Assembly (NCBI RefSeq): GCF_016859125.1 | Contig: NZ_CP069338.1 | Coordinates: 11,287,501 to 11,351,500 of the forward strand | From: Archangium violaceum | GTDB taxonomy: Bacteria; Myxococcota; Myxococcia; Myxococcales; Myxococcaceae | Reading direction: 5' to 3' | Length of the DNA: 64,000 nt | Shown here: one piece after another, positions 130-7,711 of the stretch | How the letters are laid out: each line of letters opens with the position of its first letter | How positions within the stretch are numbered: position 1 is the stretch's first letter | The notes under the pieces: generated by a model | What the model was told of the DNA's origin: nothing | What the model saw: only the letters and a program-made list of their open reading frames with translations | Databases searched by the model: none | Made by a program: the position numbers and the translations under genes

Positions 130-204
130 TTGCGCCGTGCAACGTTGTGCCGTGCAATGTTGCACGGCGCGACATTGTTCCCCGCGACGATGCACCGCGG
201 CATG
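130..204. repeat. 15-bp tandem repeat array upstream of the MarR gene
   Basis: Five consecutive 15-bp units begin at 130, 145, 160, 175 and 190. The first two read TTGCGCCGTGCAACG and TTGTGCCGTGCAATG; the later ones are more degenerate. Each good unit contains a TTGC-N5-GCAA dyad, the sort of short dyad MarR proteins bind. A perfect 12-bp inverted repeat also pairs 132-143 with 159-170. The array ends 42 bp before the MarR start codon, so an autoregulatory operator cluster is the simplest reading. The rest of 1-246 shows nothing gene-like. Confidence 0.7.
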
Positions 205-246
205 GACTTCCTCGCGGTATTGGGCCATTGAACAAATCGAGGGGAC

Positions 247-738
247 ATGAACAGACAGCGAAAAAAGGAGCGGCGGAAACCGGCACGCGAGGAGGCCACG
301 CTCGATTCCCTGGAGCGGGAGCTGAGCGTGTTCGTCCGGCGCGCGCTCCGGTTGTTCTGGAGCGAGAAGCGGGACGAGGATGTTCTCGATCGTTGGAACT
401 ACGCGTTGCTCGTGCGGTTGCTCGAAGAGGGGCCGCTGCGGGTGGGCGAGGTGGCTCGCCGGTTCGGCATCGACAAGTCGACGGCGAGCCGGCACCTCGG
501 GAAGCTCGAGGAGGAAGGGCTGGTGGAGGCCGTGGCGGACGAGCGTGATGCCCGCTCGGTGCCGCTGCGTATCACCCCCCGGGGCGAGGCACGTCTCATC
601 GAGGTCCGCCAGGCCCGGATGCAGCCGATACGGCGGCTCTTCGACACCTGGCCCAGCGAGGACCAGGAGGAGCTCTCCCGGCTGCTGGCCCGGCTCAACG
701 AGGACCTGGATCGGCTCGGGGTTCCTCCGGCCCGGTGA
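247..738 (+). CDS. MarR-family transcriptional regulator
   Basis: A 163-residue protein with a MarR-type winged helix-turn-helix. The recognition region (RFGIDKSTASRHLGKLEEEG) lies around residues 70-90 and is followed by a wing with the family-typical DERDARSVPLRITPRG. An N-terminal helix (about 22-50) and a C-terminal helix (about 125-160) would form the dimer interface. The start is supported by GAGGGG six bases upstream. The 15-bp repeat array just upstream suggests autoregulation. The ligand cannot be read from sequence. Neighbours are a decayed nucleosidase and a membrane protein on the other strand, so no target operon is evident. Confidence 0.88.
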   Translation: MNRQRKKERRKPAREEATLDSLERELSVFVRRALRLFWSEKRDEDVLDRWNYALLVRLLEEGPLRVGEVARRFGIDKSTASRHLGKLEEEGLVEAVADERDARSVPLRITPRGEARLIEVRQARMQPIRRLFDTWPSEDQEELSRLLARLNEDLDRLGVPPAR

Positions 739-766
739 GGGAGCACCATGGAGCCCCTCGTGGAGC

Positions 767-1625
767 TCAGAGCGATTCGAGGAAGGAGCGCACCACCAGG
801 GCCGAGTTGTGCGCCGCGAGCTGGAAGAAGGTGGAAATCTCGTTGGAGCCACTTCCACCTCCAGCCAGATCGCTCAGCGAGCGGAAGGCGATGAAGGGGA
901 CGCCGTTGGAGTAGGCCACCACCGCCACGGCGCTCGTCTCCATGTCCAGCGCGTCCACGCCGCTCCCGCTTCCGTCCTGGAAGCTGGAGCTTGCCCGTCA
1001 GCGCCGAGGCCACCGCGAGCATCCCCGGGTCCACGTCGAACCAGAATTTGTTCTCTGGCACGTCTGGCGTGCCTCCCTTCCGGAGCACCCCCATGTACTG
1101 GGGAAATGCCATTCCGTAGTGGCCCAGCTCGCGCGTATGTTGTGGCTGGAGCTGCCACGTGTCCGGACCCACCTCCCGGGCGAAGACCTGCTCCTGGTAG
1201 TTGGCCCACTGCCGGGGCACCGTCACGTCACCAATGTTCAGCGCGGGATTGACTCCCCCCGCGATGCCACTGAAGACAATGTGTGTCACATTGAAGCGGT
1301 CCAGCGCGAGCTGAACCGTCATGGCTGCGTTCACGGTGGAGATGCCGGAGAGGAAGAGCACCACGTCCTTGCCGCCCAGCTTCCCCAGACGGAACGTTCG
1401 GCCATTGAGCTCTTCCGTGGCCTGAACTTCCAGACCTGGCAGCAGCGCCTCCAGCTCTGGCGCCTAGGCCGTGACGACCGCGATGCGGGGCACCTCCCTG
1501 GGCTCGGGAGGGGGAAGGTCCCGCTCGTTGCGTTGCAGGAGGGGCAACAGCCGCGAACCTACCAAAGGTTGCGAAGAGGGACGAGGTGGCCACTCGGCGG
1601 GTGAAGCACAAGAGGGACTCGGCTC
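767..1625 (-). pseudogene. Decayed 5'-methylthioadenosine/SAH nucleosidase-like gene
   Basis: The minus strand encodes recognisable PNP/UDP-phosphorylase-family blocks: VLFLSGISTVNAAMTVQ and FSGIAGGVNPALNIGDVTVP in one frame, then DALDMETSAVAVVAYSNG and PFIAFRSLSDLAGG in another. An in-frame TAG at 1464-1466 interrupts RIAVVTA*APELEALLPG, where relatives usually have Tyr or Phe. Near 960-985 the reading frame changes and, by comparison with my memory of the family, about 40 residues between the LTGKLQ and ALDMET blocks are missing. Two independent lesions make this a pseudogene. The intended start is uncertain (ATG at 1625 or 1658). The parent protein was probably exported. Confidence 0.75.
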
Positions 1626-1654
1626 CATGCGAACGGGTGCTCTCCTAGCTCTTC

Positions 1655-2794
1655 TCAAGCTCGCTGCGCGGCGAGCGCGGCCTCGAGTTGCGTGCGCAGC
1701 GAGATCGCCTCAGCGGGCGACAGGACGATGCGGACCAGGGGGCCTCGCTCCCCCAGCACGTCGAGCTTCGTGTGCGCCACACGGAGGGGACGTTCCCCGC
1801 TCCCGATGAGCACTTGACCCGCCAGCAACCGCGACAACCGCAACCCGCGCACCTTCCCGAGCGGGATGCGCCGGACCCATGGAACCGGGACTGGCGTGCG
1901 AAGCAGCAGCACATCGCGACCGACCGTGAGCTTGTTGATGCCGCGCGCGGCGGTGCCTCGCAGTGCCAGCAGGAAAAGCCACGCGACAATGGCCATCCCC
2001 ATGAGGATGGCCACGATGAAGGGTCGCAACTCCTGGCGATTGAGCAGGACGACTCCGTACGCCAGTAGGAAGGAGCAGAGCGCCATGAAGAAGAGATGCA
2101 CGTACGGCCGTGCATGCCACGACAACTCGAGTCCGGCGGGCGTCACACGCGCCCGGACGGAGCCTCCTCCGGACGCAGCGGGAACGCCCGCGATTCCACC
2201 GTCCTTGCGCGGCCCCTGCTCGCGGCGCAGGGGCACGGGCTTCGGGGGCCAGACGGAGACCTCTCCCTCCGGGCCGCAGTGATCAAGCACCGGGACGCCC
2301 AGCGCCAGGGAGAGCTGGCGGGCCGCGCGTAGCAGCACGAGCTCGTCGGCATGCACCGCGAGTCTTCTGGGCACGCTCGAATCGGTGCGCAGCACGTCCA
2401 ACGACCACACCTGGGAGGCGACGTCAGGGCCACTGAGGTTGGGCCGGGCAAGAAGCCAGGTTTCCAGCGCCAGCGCCCGCACCTTGCGGAATGGAACACT
2501 TCCGACCGTGCCCTCGCGGAAGTCCACGAGGGTGAGTTCCCCGGGCCGGGTCAGTGGCCAAACCAACCCCGCGGCATAGAGAAGGCCCGGCAGCAGCAGC
2601 ACCACTCCGAGCCACCCCAGCACGAGCGCGGCGGCGCCCATGAGCAGAGCCCCGCCTGCCAGTGCGAACACCCGGCTCGCGAGATGATCCGCCCGCTCAC
2701 GTACCCACCAGCGATGGTCGCGCATCCACACGGGCTTGAGCAGGGTCCGCAAGGGACGTGGGCGGGGCACCGGGCGCGGAGAAGACCTGGGCAT
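1655..2794 (-). CDS. Hypothetical four-helix membrane protein
   Basis: A 379-residue protein that I do not recognise. Two hydrophobic hairpins are visible: residues about 42-62 and 64-82, then about 230-250 and 254-275. Between them is a soluble section of about 145 residues, and a C-terminal soluble domain follows (KVRGLRLSRLLAGQVLIGSG and on). The repeated layout of a helix pair followed by a PH-like beta section (REGTVGSVPFRKVRALALET; RIPLGKVRGLRLSRL) suggests two bPH-like halves, which is inference. It lies just upstream of the decayed nucleosidase in the same direction and was probably its operon partner. Confidence 0.7.
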   Translation of the reverse strand: MPRSSPRPVPRPRPLRTLLKPVWMRDHRWWVRERADHLASRVFALAGGALLMGAAALVLGWLGVVLLLPGLLYAAGLVWPLTRPGELTLVDFREGTVGSVPFRKVRALALETWLLARPNLSGPDVASQVWSLDVLRTDSSVPRRLAVHADELVLLRAARQLSLALGVPVLDHCGPEGEVSVWPPKPVPLRREQGPRKDGGIAGVPAASGGGSVRARVTPAGLELSWHARPYVHLFFMALCSFLLAYGVVLLNRQELRPFIVAILMGMAIVAWLFLLALRGTAARGINKLTVGRDVLLLRTPVPVPWVRRIPLGKVRGLRLSRLLAGQVLIGSGERPLRVAHTKLDVLGERGPLVRIVLSPAEAISLRTQLEAALAAQRA

Positions 2795-3378
2795 GAGGGC
2801 GGCCTACGGGTGGGCCGGAGTCGCGGAGCACGTCTGAGGTGCCGCGCCACAGGCTTCGGGCGAGGTCCAGCCGCTCACGTCCCGGGGCATCGAGGTGCGG
2901 ACGCGCCACCTGGCACTCGTCTTCAGCCGTTTCAGGACCCAGGACGCGGCACGCTCGAGACCATCACCAAACCGTAACGCTCCGCGATGACGGTCAGGCA
3001 TTCCCCCTGACGACGTGATCCTCGGCATGGCTTCGACCTCGCGCGAAACAGGGGCAGGAGCATCCCTGGGTTCACGTCCCATGACAACCGTGGCACCCGT
3101 ACGCCACGCATCACTGATTTCAAGGAGTCCGAGCCTCCCCCCCGAATGGAACATGCCCGTCATGGTGCCGGAAGGCATGGCTCCTTTCCCTCCATGGGAC
3201 AAGCTCCCCCGCAGGCAGTTCCACTCTCATGAGAGGCGCATCTCCGTGAACCTGTTCCTCCTCCTGACCCTACTCACCGCCGCCCCGGCGACTGGCACGC
3301 CTGGGCCCCGCTGGGCCCGGGCGTCCGCCTCCATCTGAGGACTTCAGCAGCCGCTCCACAGGCCCCACGGCGAGGTCG
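2795..3378. other. Intergenic stretch without a convincing gene
   Basis: No open frame here has family resemblance. The only suggestive item is a 30-codon frame on the plus strand at 3246-3338. It starts with GTG after GAGAGG, and its product begins with a textbook signal peptide (VNLFLLLTLLTAAPATG) but stops almost at once. It could be a tiny secreted peptide or the 5' stump of a lost secreted protein. Given the gene debris immediately downstream, the stump reading is preferred. Confidence 0.35.
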
Positions 3379-3666
3379 TCAGCCGCGCGGCCCGACCCAC
3401 AGCCCCGCGGCCGTGCCCGCGGCGAGGTGCTTCTCATAGCTCGCGACCTTCGCGTCGATGAGCTCCCGCGCTCGCCGCAGGTCGGCGAGCTGTGCGGCGA
3501 TGCGCTCCTGGTGCTCGCGGAGCACAACGAGTCGCTCTCGCTCCGTCCCCTCTCCCTTCCGGATGAGGCGAGCGAGCTTCGCGATCGTCGCGAGCGGCAT
3601 GCCGGAGGCGCGGAAGATGCGGCAGTTCACGATCCACGCGACGTCGGCATCGGTGTACAGCGGCAC
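3379..3666 (-). pseudogene. MerR-family regulator, 3' fragment lacking the DNA-binding domain
   Basis: Translation from 3666 gives the C-terminal three quarters of a MerR protein: LYTDADVAWIVNCRIFRASG, MPLATIAKLARLIRKGEGT, then a dimerisation coiled coil (RERLVVLREHQERIAAQLAD). The N-terminal winged helix that normally precedes the (R)RYTDADV block is absent. Reading upstream meets a stop at 3730-3732, with only unrelated sequence between. The fragment cannot bind DNA as a MerR protein. It abuts the remnant of a divergent short-chain dehydrogenase, so one deletion appears to have removed both 5' ends. Confidence 0.75.
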
Positions 3667-3912
3667 CTCAGCCGCGCGGAGATGATCGAGGCCGGCTGGG
3701 TCGATTCCTCTGGCGCCCCTGTGAATCCGTCATTCCGCTCGCCCGAGCAGGGCGCGGCGACCCAGGTCTGGGCGGCCACATCGCCCTCGCTCGTTGGGAA
3801 GGGCGGGCTGCACTGTGAGGACTGCGCGGTCGTCGGACCGGCGCTGTCGGGGTTGCCCGAGGAGGAGGCGGAGCGATTGTGGGAATACTCGATAGGGCTC
3901 GTCAGCGCCTAG
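3655..3912 (+). pseudogene. Short-chain dehydrogenase, 3' fragment only
   Basis: The plus-strand frame ending at 3912 reads QRHLSRAEMIEAGWVDSSG, then SPEQGAATQVWAATSPSLVG, KGGLHCEDCAV and EEEAERLWEYS. This is the characteristic C-terminus of the retinol-dehydrogenase-like SDR group, which in many bacteria is divergently paired with a MerR regulator. The Rossmann motif and catalytic Tyr-x3-Lys portion (about 230 residues) are missing. The remnant begins where the opposite-strand MerR remnant ends, near 3655-3666. Family assignment rests on the SPEQGAA and GGLxCEDC signatures. Confidence 0.7.
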
Positions 3913-3976
3913 CCGTGCAAGCCCCGACGGAACCATTCGAGGCGGCGAGTGCTGGCCGTCGCGGTACACTCCGGGC

Positions 3977-5182
3977 ATGACGATGGACCCTCACGGGGCA
4001 TGGGCGTACCGCCCGGATGCCCCTCTTCGAGGCGCGGCGGACGGGCCGCTCTCGGGCCTGACGTTCAGCGCCAAGGACCTGTACGGCGTGCCGGGATGGC
4101 CGCTGCGGGGCAGCTCTCGGGCAGTCCTTCCCGAAGTGGGTGACAGTCCGCTCGTGGCTCGCCTCCTGGGGCTCGGGGCGACGCTCCTCGGAAAGACGCA
4201 CCTGCACGAGGTGGCGCTCGGCATCACCGGCGCCAATGCCTTCGGCGGGACGCGCAACCCGTTGGAGCCCACGCGGGTGGCGGGTGGCTCCAGCGGCGGT
4301 GCGGCCGTGAGCGTCGCGACGGGCGAGGTGGACTTCGCGCTCGGCACGGACACGGGTGGCAGCATCCGCGTGCCGGCCGCGTGGTGCGGCGTGGTGGGCT
4401 TCAAGCCCACGAAAGGCAGCGCCGCCTGGCCCACCGAGGGCGTGCTGCCGCTGAGCTCCACCTGCGACCACACGGGCCCGCTCGCGCGGGAAGTGCGCGG
4501 GGTGGCTCGCATCCACACCGCCTTGTCGGGCGAGGCCGTGGCTCCGAGGGCGTGGGCCGGAGTGCGCGTGGGCGTGTGGGACGTCCCTGCCTGGGTTACC
4601 CCGGACGTCTGGGCCGTGGTGGAGGCGGACGCGGCACGGTTGGCGGCGCTGGGGGCGCGAATCACGCGAGTGCCCTTTCCCGACATCATGGATGCGTACA
4701 CGCCCATCGTGCTGAGCGAGGCGGCGGCCGTGCATGCGCGGGCCTTGACGAGCGAAGCGCCGGGTTTCATCGCCACCACGGAAGCGAACCTTCGCGCGGG
4801 CGCGGCACTGAGCAAGGCGGACGTGGCGGCCGCGCGTGCCAGGCGGGAGGCGTACCGCACGCGACTGGAGGCACTGTTCAGCGAGGTGGACGTCCTGCTC
4901 GGCCCCGCGGTACCAGACGTGGCGCCCCGGGTCGACCAGGAAGAAGTCGGTGTCGCGGAAGGAGTGCTGCCAGTGCGGCGTGCGGTGCTGCGCATCACCG
5001 CGCCGTGGAGTCTGCTGGGCGCGCCGACGCTGTGCCTCCCGCGTCCGCTCGGTGCGCTGTCGGTGGGCGTTCAGCTGGTCGCGCCATGGGAACAGGACGT
5101 GGCCCTGCTCGGATGGGGGCTCGGAATGGATATAACAGGGCCTCGCCCTGGCGCAGCAGGGACGCGCCAACATGGCACGTGA
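3977..5182 (+). CDS. Amidase-signature family hydrolase
   Basis: A 401-residue amidase-signature enzyme hydrolysing a C-N amide bond of unknown substrate. The Ser-cisSer-Lys triad is intact: Lys33 in [10 protein letters not shown], Ser105 in GGSSGG, Ser129 in [12 protein letters not shown]. The 24-residue spacing between the two serines matches the family. At 401 residues it is shorter than GatA (about 480) and has no GatB or GatC neighbour, so it is not tRNA amidotransferase. No signal peptide is seen. ATG 3977 lacks a Shine-Dalgarno sequence, but a -10-like TACACT sits at 3963-3968, so the message may be leaderless. Confidence 0.85.
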
Positions 5183-5579
5183 GCGGACCCGCGCAACGAC
5201 GACACGCGGTGGGCTTCACCTCGCGCGTCTCGTCGGCGCACTCGGGAGGCCGGTCCATCGTCTCGCCGGGGCTGGTCGACCCATCCCCGCATCGCCAACA
5301 CTTGCTTGACTGGCCGCTCACTCCACGAAGAGTGGCTCGCGGGGCGTAGAGTAGTTCCCCCATGCGGGGGGCGGAGCCGTGGCCGGAGGAAGGGAGCCCG
5401 TCCCTGGCCACAGGCCCACCCTCACAATGACTGGCATCACCCCCCCGGTGAATCGCTCTCCTGCATCCCCAAAACCGTCCTGCACTCAACATATTCCGAG
5501 ATGGACGGTTTCGCTTGAATTCCTCCACAATCTGGCTTCAGTTACTGTCATTGTCGCTTCGCGTTTGGTGGGGCGACTC

Positions 5580-5940
5580 AGCGGTGAGCGCCCCCAAATC
5601 CCGGGAACCACTGGAGAATGCACTTCATTGCCAAGAGACTGCAATTTTCCTTCAATCAAAAATGACAACGTTACGATTCGTTCCCCCCTCTCTTTCATCC
5701 GCGCGGGAGGCATCAAGCGGGACGTCACGGGCATGAGCGCCTCACGTCTGGAGGCAACCCAGCGGTGGCGCACGCCAATCCGGTGACCCCAGGAGGCTCC
5801 GCCTCATTGCCATCAAGCTGAAATCTTCCCTTCAACCAAAAATGACAACGTTGTGATTCGCTCACCCCCTCTTGTGACCGTGGAGCAGCCATCACTCGGG
5901 ACGAGGAGGGACTGTCGAGAACATACCCCAGGGAGAGGGA
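5580..5940. repeat. Diverged 180-bp tandem duplication upstream of GH5
   Basis: Two imperfect copies about 180 bp apart (roughly 5580-5760 and 5760-5940). The best conserved core is at 5649-5680 versus 5829-5860, with 29 of 32 bases matching and including AAAAATGACAACGTT. Flanking similarity covers CAGCGGTG at the start, CTCATTGCC-like blocks and the run of C after the core. The core is notably AT-richer than the genome. No coding potential is evident anywhere in 5183-5940. The duplication ends at the region that should contain the glycosidase promoter. Confidence 0.6.
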
Positions 5941-5987
5941 TGACAATGCTGTCAGACATTGCAGGCCCATGGCGGGTCCATGCCTGC
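5941..5987 (+). promoter_or_regulatory. Dyads in the leader region of the GH5 gene
   Basis: A perfect inverted repeat TGACA-ATGC-TGTCA lies at 5941-5954, about 60 bp before the start codon. A second imperfect hairpin has GCAGG at 5961-5965 and CCTGC at 5983-5987 with an inner CATG pair. The first looks like a regulator site and the second could shape the leader mRNA. No regulator is assigned. Confidence 0.4.
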
Positions 5988-6015
5988 CATTGGGCTCACT
6001 TCTGGAGACACCTTT

Positions 6016-7653
6016 ATGTCCCGACAGATTCACCACGCTGATCCCCGTCATGTCTGGTTCTGGTGGCGAAAGCTCCTCACCACCGCGACAAGCGCCGTGC
6101 TGATTGCCGCGCTCTCCGTCCTCGCGCCCATCAGGGCCGCCCATGCCGCGGACGGTGGCTTCCATATCGTCAACGGCCGGCTCCTCGACGCGAACGGCAA
6201 CGACTTCATCATCCGCGGTATCAGCCACCCGCACGCATGGTACCCGCAGAGGACCAGCTCGTTCGCTGACATCAAGGTGGTGGGGGCCAACAGCGTCCGC
6301 GTCGTGCTGAGCGGTGGCCGGTGGTCGGTCAACACGGCCAGCGATGTGGCGAACGTCATCTCGCTCTGCAAGCAGAACCGGCTCATCTGCGTGCTCGAGA
6401 ACCACGACACGACGGGCTATGGGGAGGCGAGTGACGCCTACAGCCTCTCTCAGGCCGTCGACTACTGGCTGAGCATTCGCAGTGCGCTCGTTGGCCAGGA
6501 GGCCTATGCCATCATCAACATCGGCAATGAGCCGTATGGCAACACCAATCCCACGGCGTGGGTTGCGGCGATCATTGATGCGATCCAACGCCTGCGCGCT
6601 GCTGGGCTGACGCACACCTTGATGATTGACGGGCCGAATTGGGGGCAGGACTGGTCCAACACCATGCGGGACAACGCCCAGACGATCTGGGAGGCCGACC
6701 CGCTGCGCAACTCCATCTTCAGCATCCACATGTACGGCGTCTACAACACCCCATCGAAGGTAAAGGCCTACCTCGACTCGTTTACCAGCCGTGGCCTGCC
6801 CATCCTCGTCGGCGAGTTCGGGTGGTACCACTCCGACGGAGATCCGGATGAGGTGACAATCACGGAGCACACCACGTCGCTGGGTCTCGGCTACATAGGC
6901 TGGTCGTGGAGCGGCAACGGAGGTGGCGTCGAATACCTCGACATGGTCACCAACTTCAACCCGGCCAGCCGCACGGACTGGGGCAACTGGCTCATCACGA
7001 GTGCCAATGGCCTCGAGGCCACCTCCGTCGAGGCCTCGGTTTTCGAGGGAGGTGGCGACACGCAGCGCCCGACCGCGCCCGGCAACCTGGAGGCGACAGG
7101 TACGACGTCGAGCAGCGTGTCGCTCGCGTGGAGCGCCTCGACCGACAACGTCGCGGTGACCGGTTACGATGTCTACCGAGGGTCCGCCCGCGTGGCGACG
7201 CTCCCCAGCAGCATGCTGTCGTACACGGACACGGGGCTGTCTGCGAACACGACCTACAAATACACGGTGTATGCGCGTGATGCCGCTGGGAACGTGAGCG
7301 AGGCGTCCAACACCGTTTCCGCGACGACCCAGTCCTCCGGGGGAGGAACCGACGGCTGCACGGCGACCTATAAGCTCGATAACGAGTGGGGCACCGGCTT
7401 CGGCGCCACCGTGACGGTGACGAACACCGGGACCACCGCGACCAAGGGCTGGACGATCAGCTGGACCTTCGGTGGCAACCAGCAGATCACCAACATGTGG
7501 AACGCCACGCCGACCCAATCCGGCGCGAGCGTCACGGTGCGGAACATGAGCTACAACGGTGTCATCCAGCCAGGGAGCAGCACGACCTTCGGATTCCAGG
7601 CGGCGTATTCCGGTTCCAATACCTCGCCAACCCTGACCTGCACCGTCAACTGA
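6016..7653 (+). CDS. Secreted GH5 mannanase/cellulase with FnIII and CBM2
   Basis: A 545-residue exported glycosidase. Residues 1-45 form a long signal peptide (RRKLLTTATSAVL...RAAHA after a basic, Trp-rich start). The GH5 barrel spans about 48-345, with acid/base Glu172 in INIGNEPYG and nucleophile Glu267 in ILVGEFGW. FnIII follows at about 365-450, then a GGG linker and a C-terminal CBM2 (about 465-545) with Cys near both ends and conserved Trp. The fold resembles subfamily GH5_8 endo-beta-1,4-mannanases, but cellulase activity is not excluded. ATG 6016 is preferred over upstream starts because TGGAGA precedes it and it begins the signal peptide. Confidence 0.9.
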   Translation: MSRQIHHADPRHVWFWWRKLLTTATSAVLIAALSVLAPIRAAHAADGGFHIVNGRLLDANGNDFIIRGISHPHAWYPQRTSSFADIKVVGANSVRVVLSGGRWSVNTASDVANVISLCKQNRLICVLENHDTTGYGEASDAYSLSQAVDYWLSIRSALVGQEAYAIINIGNEPYGNTNPTAWVAAIIDAIQRLRAAGLTHTLMIDGPNWGQDWSNTMRDNAQTIWEADPLRNSIFSIHMYGVYNTPSKVKAYLDSFTSRGLPILVGEFGWYHSDGDPDEVTITEHTTSLGLGYIGWSWSGNGGGVEYLDMVTNFNPASRTDWGNWLITSANGLEATSVEASVFEGGGDTQRPTAPGNLEATGTTSSSVSLAWSASTDNVAVTGYDVYRGSARVATLPSSMLSYTDTGLSANTTYKYTVYARDAAGNVSEASNTVSATTQSSGGGTDGCTATYKLDNEWGTGFGATVTVTNTGTTATKGWTISWTFGGNQQITNMWNATPTQSGASVTVRNMSYNGVIQPGSSTTFGFQAAYSGSNTSPTLTCTVN

Positions 7654-7711
7654 AGGAGTCTGTGGCAGGGAGGGACCGAGGCGGGGTCCCTCCCGGCCCG
7701 GCGCGCCGCTC

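Follow-up and report, generated by a model that had tools for sequence, protein, structure and literature searches.

The MerR-family regulator NmlR usually has adhC as its partner. Among MerR-family regulators more widely, PMC1526738 describes palindromes within the 19–20 bp spacers of target promoters, and the systems treated there are those of heavy-metal resistance, the targets being transporters or detoxification genes. Here, we compare with these a locus in a 64,000-nucleotide stretch of the Archangium violaceum genome (NZ_CP069338.1, positions 11,287,501 to 11,351,500; hereafter the window), in which the tail of a MerR-family regulator gene abuts the tail of an SDR gene on the opposite strand.

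Results

The minus strand of the window carries, at 3379–3657, a remnant of a MerR-family regulator gene encoding the C-terminal ~90–92 residues, that is the end of the wing region, the linker and the coiled coil, with the natural stop codon kept and the HTH-bearing N-terminus gone. The frame is open from stop to stop over 3379–3729, with a translation that includes LYTDADVAWIVNCRIFRASGMPLATIAKLARLIRKGEG, and matches Pfam MerR-DNA-bind in a profile search (8.5e-06); this match and the identity to homologues show that the C-terminal dimerisation helix region that follows the HTH is present. The absence of a DNA-binding domain, already claimed in an earlier sequence-only reading of this DNA, is borne out by the profiles: MerR_1 is matched at positions 37–67 of 69 only, under the cut-off, NmlR (NF041849) is matched from position 39 on, and solved MerR regulators align from their residue ~42 on. 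A winged HTH (MerR_1/MerR) was not found upstream in frame. Identity to intact MerR proteins reaches 59% across 84–92 residues, with tblastn E values against intact loci down to 7.8e-32, and three of the 26 columns invariant in the intact proteins deviate, including one at the joint. A mechanically called ORF of 95 residues (3379–3666, minus strand) covers the remnant from a GTG start at 3666, within former SDR sequence; no good ribosome-binding site was seen for it by eye, and it is probably not a gene. Judged by its sequence, the remnant is a piece of a MerR gene and not a MerR regulator.

The plus-strand partner, at 3658–3912, encodes the C-terminal ~84 residues of a PRK06196-like SDR, also with its natural stop. 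The translation of its frame (3652–3909) begins QRHLSRAEMIEAGWVDSSGAPVNPSFRSPEQGAATQVWAATSPSLVGKGGLHCEDC and matches PRK06196 at positions 221–314 of 320 (E 3.6e-26), while tblastn against intact loci gives E values down to 1.3e-26. A match that starts only at position 221 agrees with the earlier claim that the Rossmann half is missing: the ~205–221 N-terminal residues, which make up the Rossmann fold and the catalytic part, are absent, and neither the TGGYSGLG nucleotide-binding motif nor the YxxxK catalytic motif, both located upstream of the break in intact relatives, is found in the window's SDR frame. The motifs of the SDR C-terminal segment are present (GW.D..G, GAATQVWAATSP and GG.YC.DC), with Y to H in GG.YC as the sole deviation inside them; at the 27 columns invariant in intact proteins there are four deviations, one of them at the joint. 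A mechanically called ORF of 161 residues (3427–3912, plus strand) was considered as a restored SDR and ruled out, since the part before 3655 reads the MerR remnant in antisense. More generally, no upstream in-frame piece that would restore either gene, an outcome the sequence-only reading had named as fatal to its account, was found, and such a rescue is ruled out because each frame, once past the joint, is merely the antisense reading of its partner.

Together the two tails fill 3379–3912, which spans exactly MerR stop to SDR stop, both natural 3' ends being retained. They had been proposed to abut at about 3655–3666; the abutment stands, and the junction can be drawn more narrowly at 3657–3660, with MerR homology firm to 3657, SDR homology from 3658 and no unmatched base between them. 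At the DNA level, the MerR side fits up to TAC/GTA at 3655–3657 and the SDR side from CAG at 3658; given GTG as the MerR codon, the bases CA at 3658–3659 suit either side, which gives 0–2 bp of microhomology. Two shared bases are within chance expectation. At the protein level, in every intact locus the MerR match starts at codon 3658–3660 and the SDR match at codon 3655–3657. Just beyond the joint each protein has a deviant residue, L in place of V in MerR and V in place of L in the SDR, as expected of a junction, and the tblastn E values together with the lack of a gap between the two homologies exclude chance homology. By its bases, the joint appears to be an illegitimate joining without a long repeat, nothing further being shown.

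Intact divergent MerR/SDR pairs, with their 5' ends face to face, are present in 19 distinct actinobacterial genomes, including Micromonospora, Actinoallomurus and Embleya. The first loci, in Micromonospora alfalfae, M. noduli and Actinoallomurus purpureus, emerged when named genomes were scanned with the MerR tail. A set of 201 genomes centred on M. alfalfae supplied 15 more with an SDR next to the MerR; for three other MerR matches in that set, no matching SDR lay within 1.5 kb. A further intact pair lies on an Embleya megaplasmid. The pairs of M. alfalfae (NZ_JAKKFH010000003), M. noduli (NZ_PYAK01000005), A. purpureus (NZ_JAMXMY010000007) and Embleya sp. NBC_00896 (NZ_CP108777) belong to the same families as the window pair and have the same 3' ends in divergent order. 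At roughly 44–59% protein identity to the remnants, the actinobacterial loci have a complete SDR, an HTH and the shared promoter, whereas the window is without the central ~0.8 kb. On either side of the junction, all 19 loci lose homology to the window at one and the same residue, the two points lying 802–851 bp apart there and adjacent in the window. Alignment with an intact MerR–SDR locus, which the sequence-only reading had put forward as its check, thus supports the claim that one deletion removed both 5' ends and the shared promoter, the missing parts being contiguous in all 19 loci; a divergent arrangement, said to be usual for this regulator and its target, is found in 19 of 19 intact pairs. 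In the collections searched the closest intact loci (~50–59% identity) belong to another phylum, and the ancestral bases at the joint are therefore inferred. Two candidate counterparts were rejected: a Burkholderia SDR locus, as a non-actinobacterial case, has an AraC rather than a MerR neighbour, and beside the SDR of a Streptomyces plasmid no MerR is annotated. On a plasmid of Streptomyces sp. NBC_01166 (locus L058), the gene opposite a related MerR regulator codes for an aldo/keto reductase and not an SDR, so the carbonyl-active oxidoreductases under the control of this MerR subfamily may be of more than one kind.

Measured against the intact loci, the MerR gene of the window is short of 41–45 codons, corresponding to the HTH region, and its SDR gene of 205–221 codons; the roughly 55 bp that separate the two start codons are gone as well. 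The intact intergenic stretch holds a conserved MerR-type promoter, TTGACC TAGACCTCGGTCTAGCACC TAGCGT, which points to the SDR and consists of -35-like and -10-like hexamers around a 19-nt spacer with a palindrome, the SDR start codon following 7–8 nt after it. The palindrome arms read CTAGACC..GGTCTAG in most loci, and paired changes in L042 and L044 (CTAGAGAG/CCCTCTAG) preserve the palindrome. The promoter was seen in the intergenic regions of loci L023–L055, for example at 1328–1354 of L040 (minus strand). In the window, the TTGACC-N19-TAGCGT element is absent at up to 3 mismatches. From the promoter layout we infer that the MerR regulator activates the SDR gene in intact loci, and the 7–8 nt distance suggests that the MerR-activated SDR transcript is leaderless in these actinobacteria.

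The host genome has no second copy of the MerR tail and sixty SDR-like places. The best full-length SDR paralogue among these, 49% identical to the SDR of L044, matches the window fragment weakly and has no MerR nearby; the idea that the deleted middle was displaced elsewhere in the genome was rejected, since this paralogue is its best candidate. At E 1e-10 the MerR sequence has no match in the phylum (195 genomes searched) beyond the window's own genome, and with the MerR tail as query no truncated MerR/SDR pair was found in same-genus, class (147) or phylum (195) genomes. A truncated pair shared by relatives, which the sequence-only reading would have taken as its refutation, did not turn up: of the same-phylum relatives searched, none carries the MerR in either truncated or complete form. 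Since no other member of the phylum sample carries the MerR, the two-gene unit was probably acquired laterally in the host lineage. In the five same-genus genomes the MerR is missing and the flanks could not be aligned, and for window positions 200–7700 lengthy same-genus alignment is confined to 5423–7700 (the cellulase gene and the upstream 0.6 kb), other matches being short. No empty or intact site was found in the same-genus genomes, whose left flanks differ.

The surroundings hold other features. At 3214–3301 (plus strand), close to the MerR tail, lies a third gene remnant, the 5' end of a small secreted-protein gene with start codon and signal peptide (VNLFLLLTLLTAAPA), cut off after ~20 codons; one same-genus genome carries the whole gene (G005:C3:189845-190330, 162 residues), which has no Pfam match. 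Further left, a phosphorylase-superfamily (PNP_UDP_1) gene at 767–1364 (minus strand) extends over two frames that match profile positions 44–133 and 170–233, and is either a frameshifted pseudogene or a sequencing error; an intact MarR-family gene (247–738) adjoins it. To the right, a cellulase gene (GH5, with fn3 and CBM2; 5995–7700, plus strand) is 93–95% identical at the DNA level in two same-genus genomes. Left of it, each of these two has different DNA; the cellulase marks the edge of a variable segment.

Discussion

A single deletion in a MerR/SDR unit that was itself likely of lateral origin, leaving two non-functional tails, is very probably the right explanation of this locus. The host lineage would once have held the intact pair, transcribed apart from one ~55-bp promoter region. 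An illegitimate deletion of ~0.8 kb, its ends sharing at most 2 bp, would then have cost the regulator its DNA-binding half and the enzyme its cofactor-binding and catalytic part, along with the promoter between them, and what it left would be the two tails pointing outwards. Counting against this account is that both frames are open and near consensus and so offer no independent indication of prolonged decay; the open frames and the few deviations at invariant columns suggest a fairly recent deletion, one sequence and distant relatives giving no date.

The two tails might also have come to lie side by side by chance, through two independent truncations or through an insertion that removed one gene and a second deletion thereafter, and the other gene remnants nearby (3214–3301 and 767–1364) do indicate that the area was rearranged more than once. 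Foreign sequence or a gap would, however, be the normal trace of two events, whereas here the homologies meet without an unmatched base and each intact locus has the missing pieces in one continuous stretch, so we regard this course as improbable. An assembly or sequencing artefact, in which the cell holds an intact pair whose middle was collapsed, seems more improbable again: the genome being a single contig may be held in its favour, but the 0–2 bp shared at the ends provide no long direct repeat to provoke a collapse, and the deleted middle occurs elsewhere in the assembly only as distant SDR paralogues.

Least credible of all is that the MerR remnant is a functional short protein, such as an HTH-less coiled coil acting as the dominant-negative partner of another MerR protein. 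Its frame runs open for 95 residues between the GTG at 3666 and the natural stop, with near-consensus residues, and its GC by codon position is gene-like (0.74, 0.50, 0.90; the SDR remnant has 0.69, 0.56, 0.86, and both resemble neighbouring genes). Against this, high-GC frames stay open long by chance, the shared promoter is gone, the start falls in what was once SDR sequence, and the short form is not retained in any relative. We give equally little credence to the HTH-less tail being still made as a dominant-negative dimer partner, which would make the deletion a functional switch and not decay.

Under the single-deletion account, the MerR/SDR remnants are a case of ordinary gene decay, mechanistically ordinary and unusually clean to reconstruct. 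They offer an example of how an acquired regulator–target unit dies: one small deletion over the shared promoter disables both genes, and divergent pairs thus have a single weak point. A search for literature on pseudogenes in myxobacteria gave nothing useful. As a by-product, the comparison brings out a conserved actinobacterial unit, composed of a MerR regulator, a palindromic promoter with a 19-nt spacer and a probably leaderless SDR gene. No paper on this pair was found in the literature searched, where the unit is undescribed; its inducer and substrate are open to direct testing.

Among named regulators, NmlR (NF041849) is the best NCBIfam match of the MerR tail (5.2e-11), at 42.6 bits against a cut-off of 175 for a tail that lacks the HTH, and the partner of the tail is an SDR, unlike that of NmlR. 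Compared with the MerR-type promoters of PMC1526738, the window differs in having lost its promoter, while the intact pair is alike in its 19-nt spacer, its palindrome and the divergent layout of regulator and target, and differs from the heavy-metal systems described there in that its target is an SDR.
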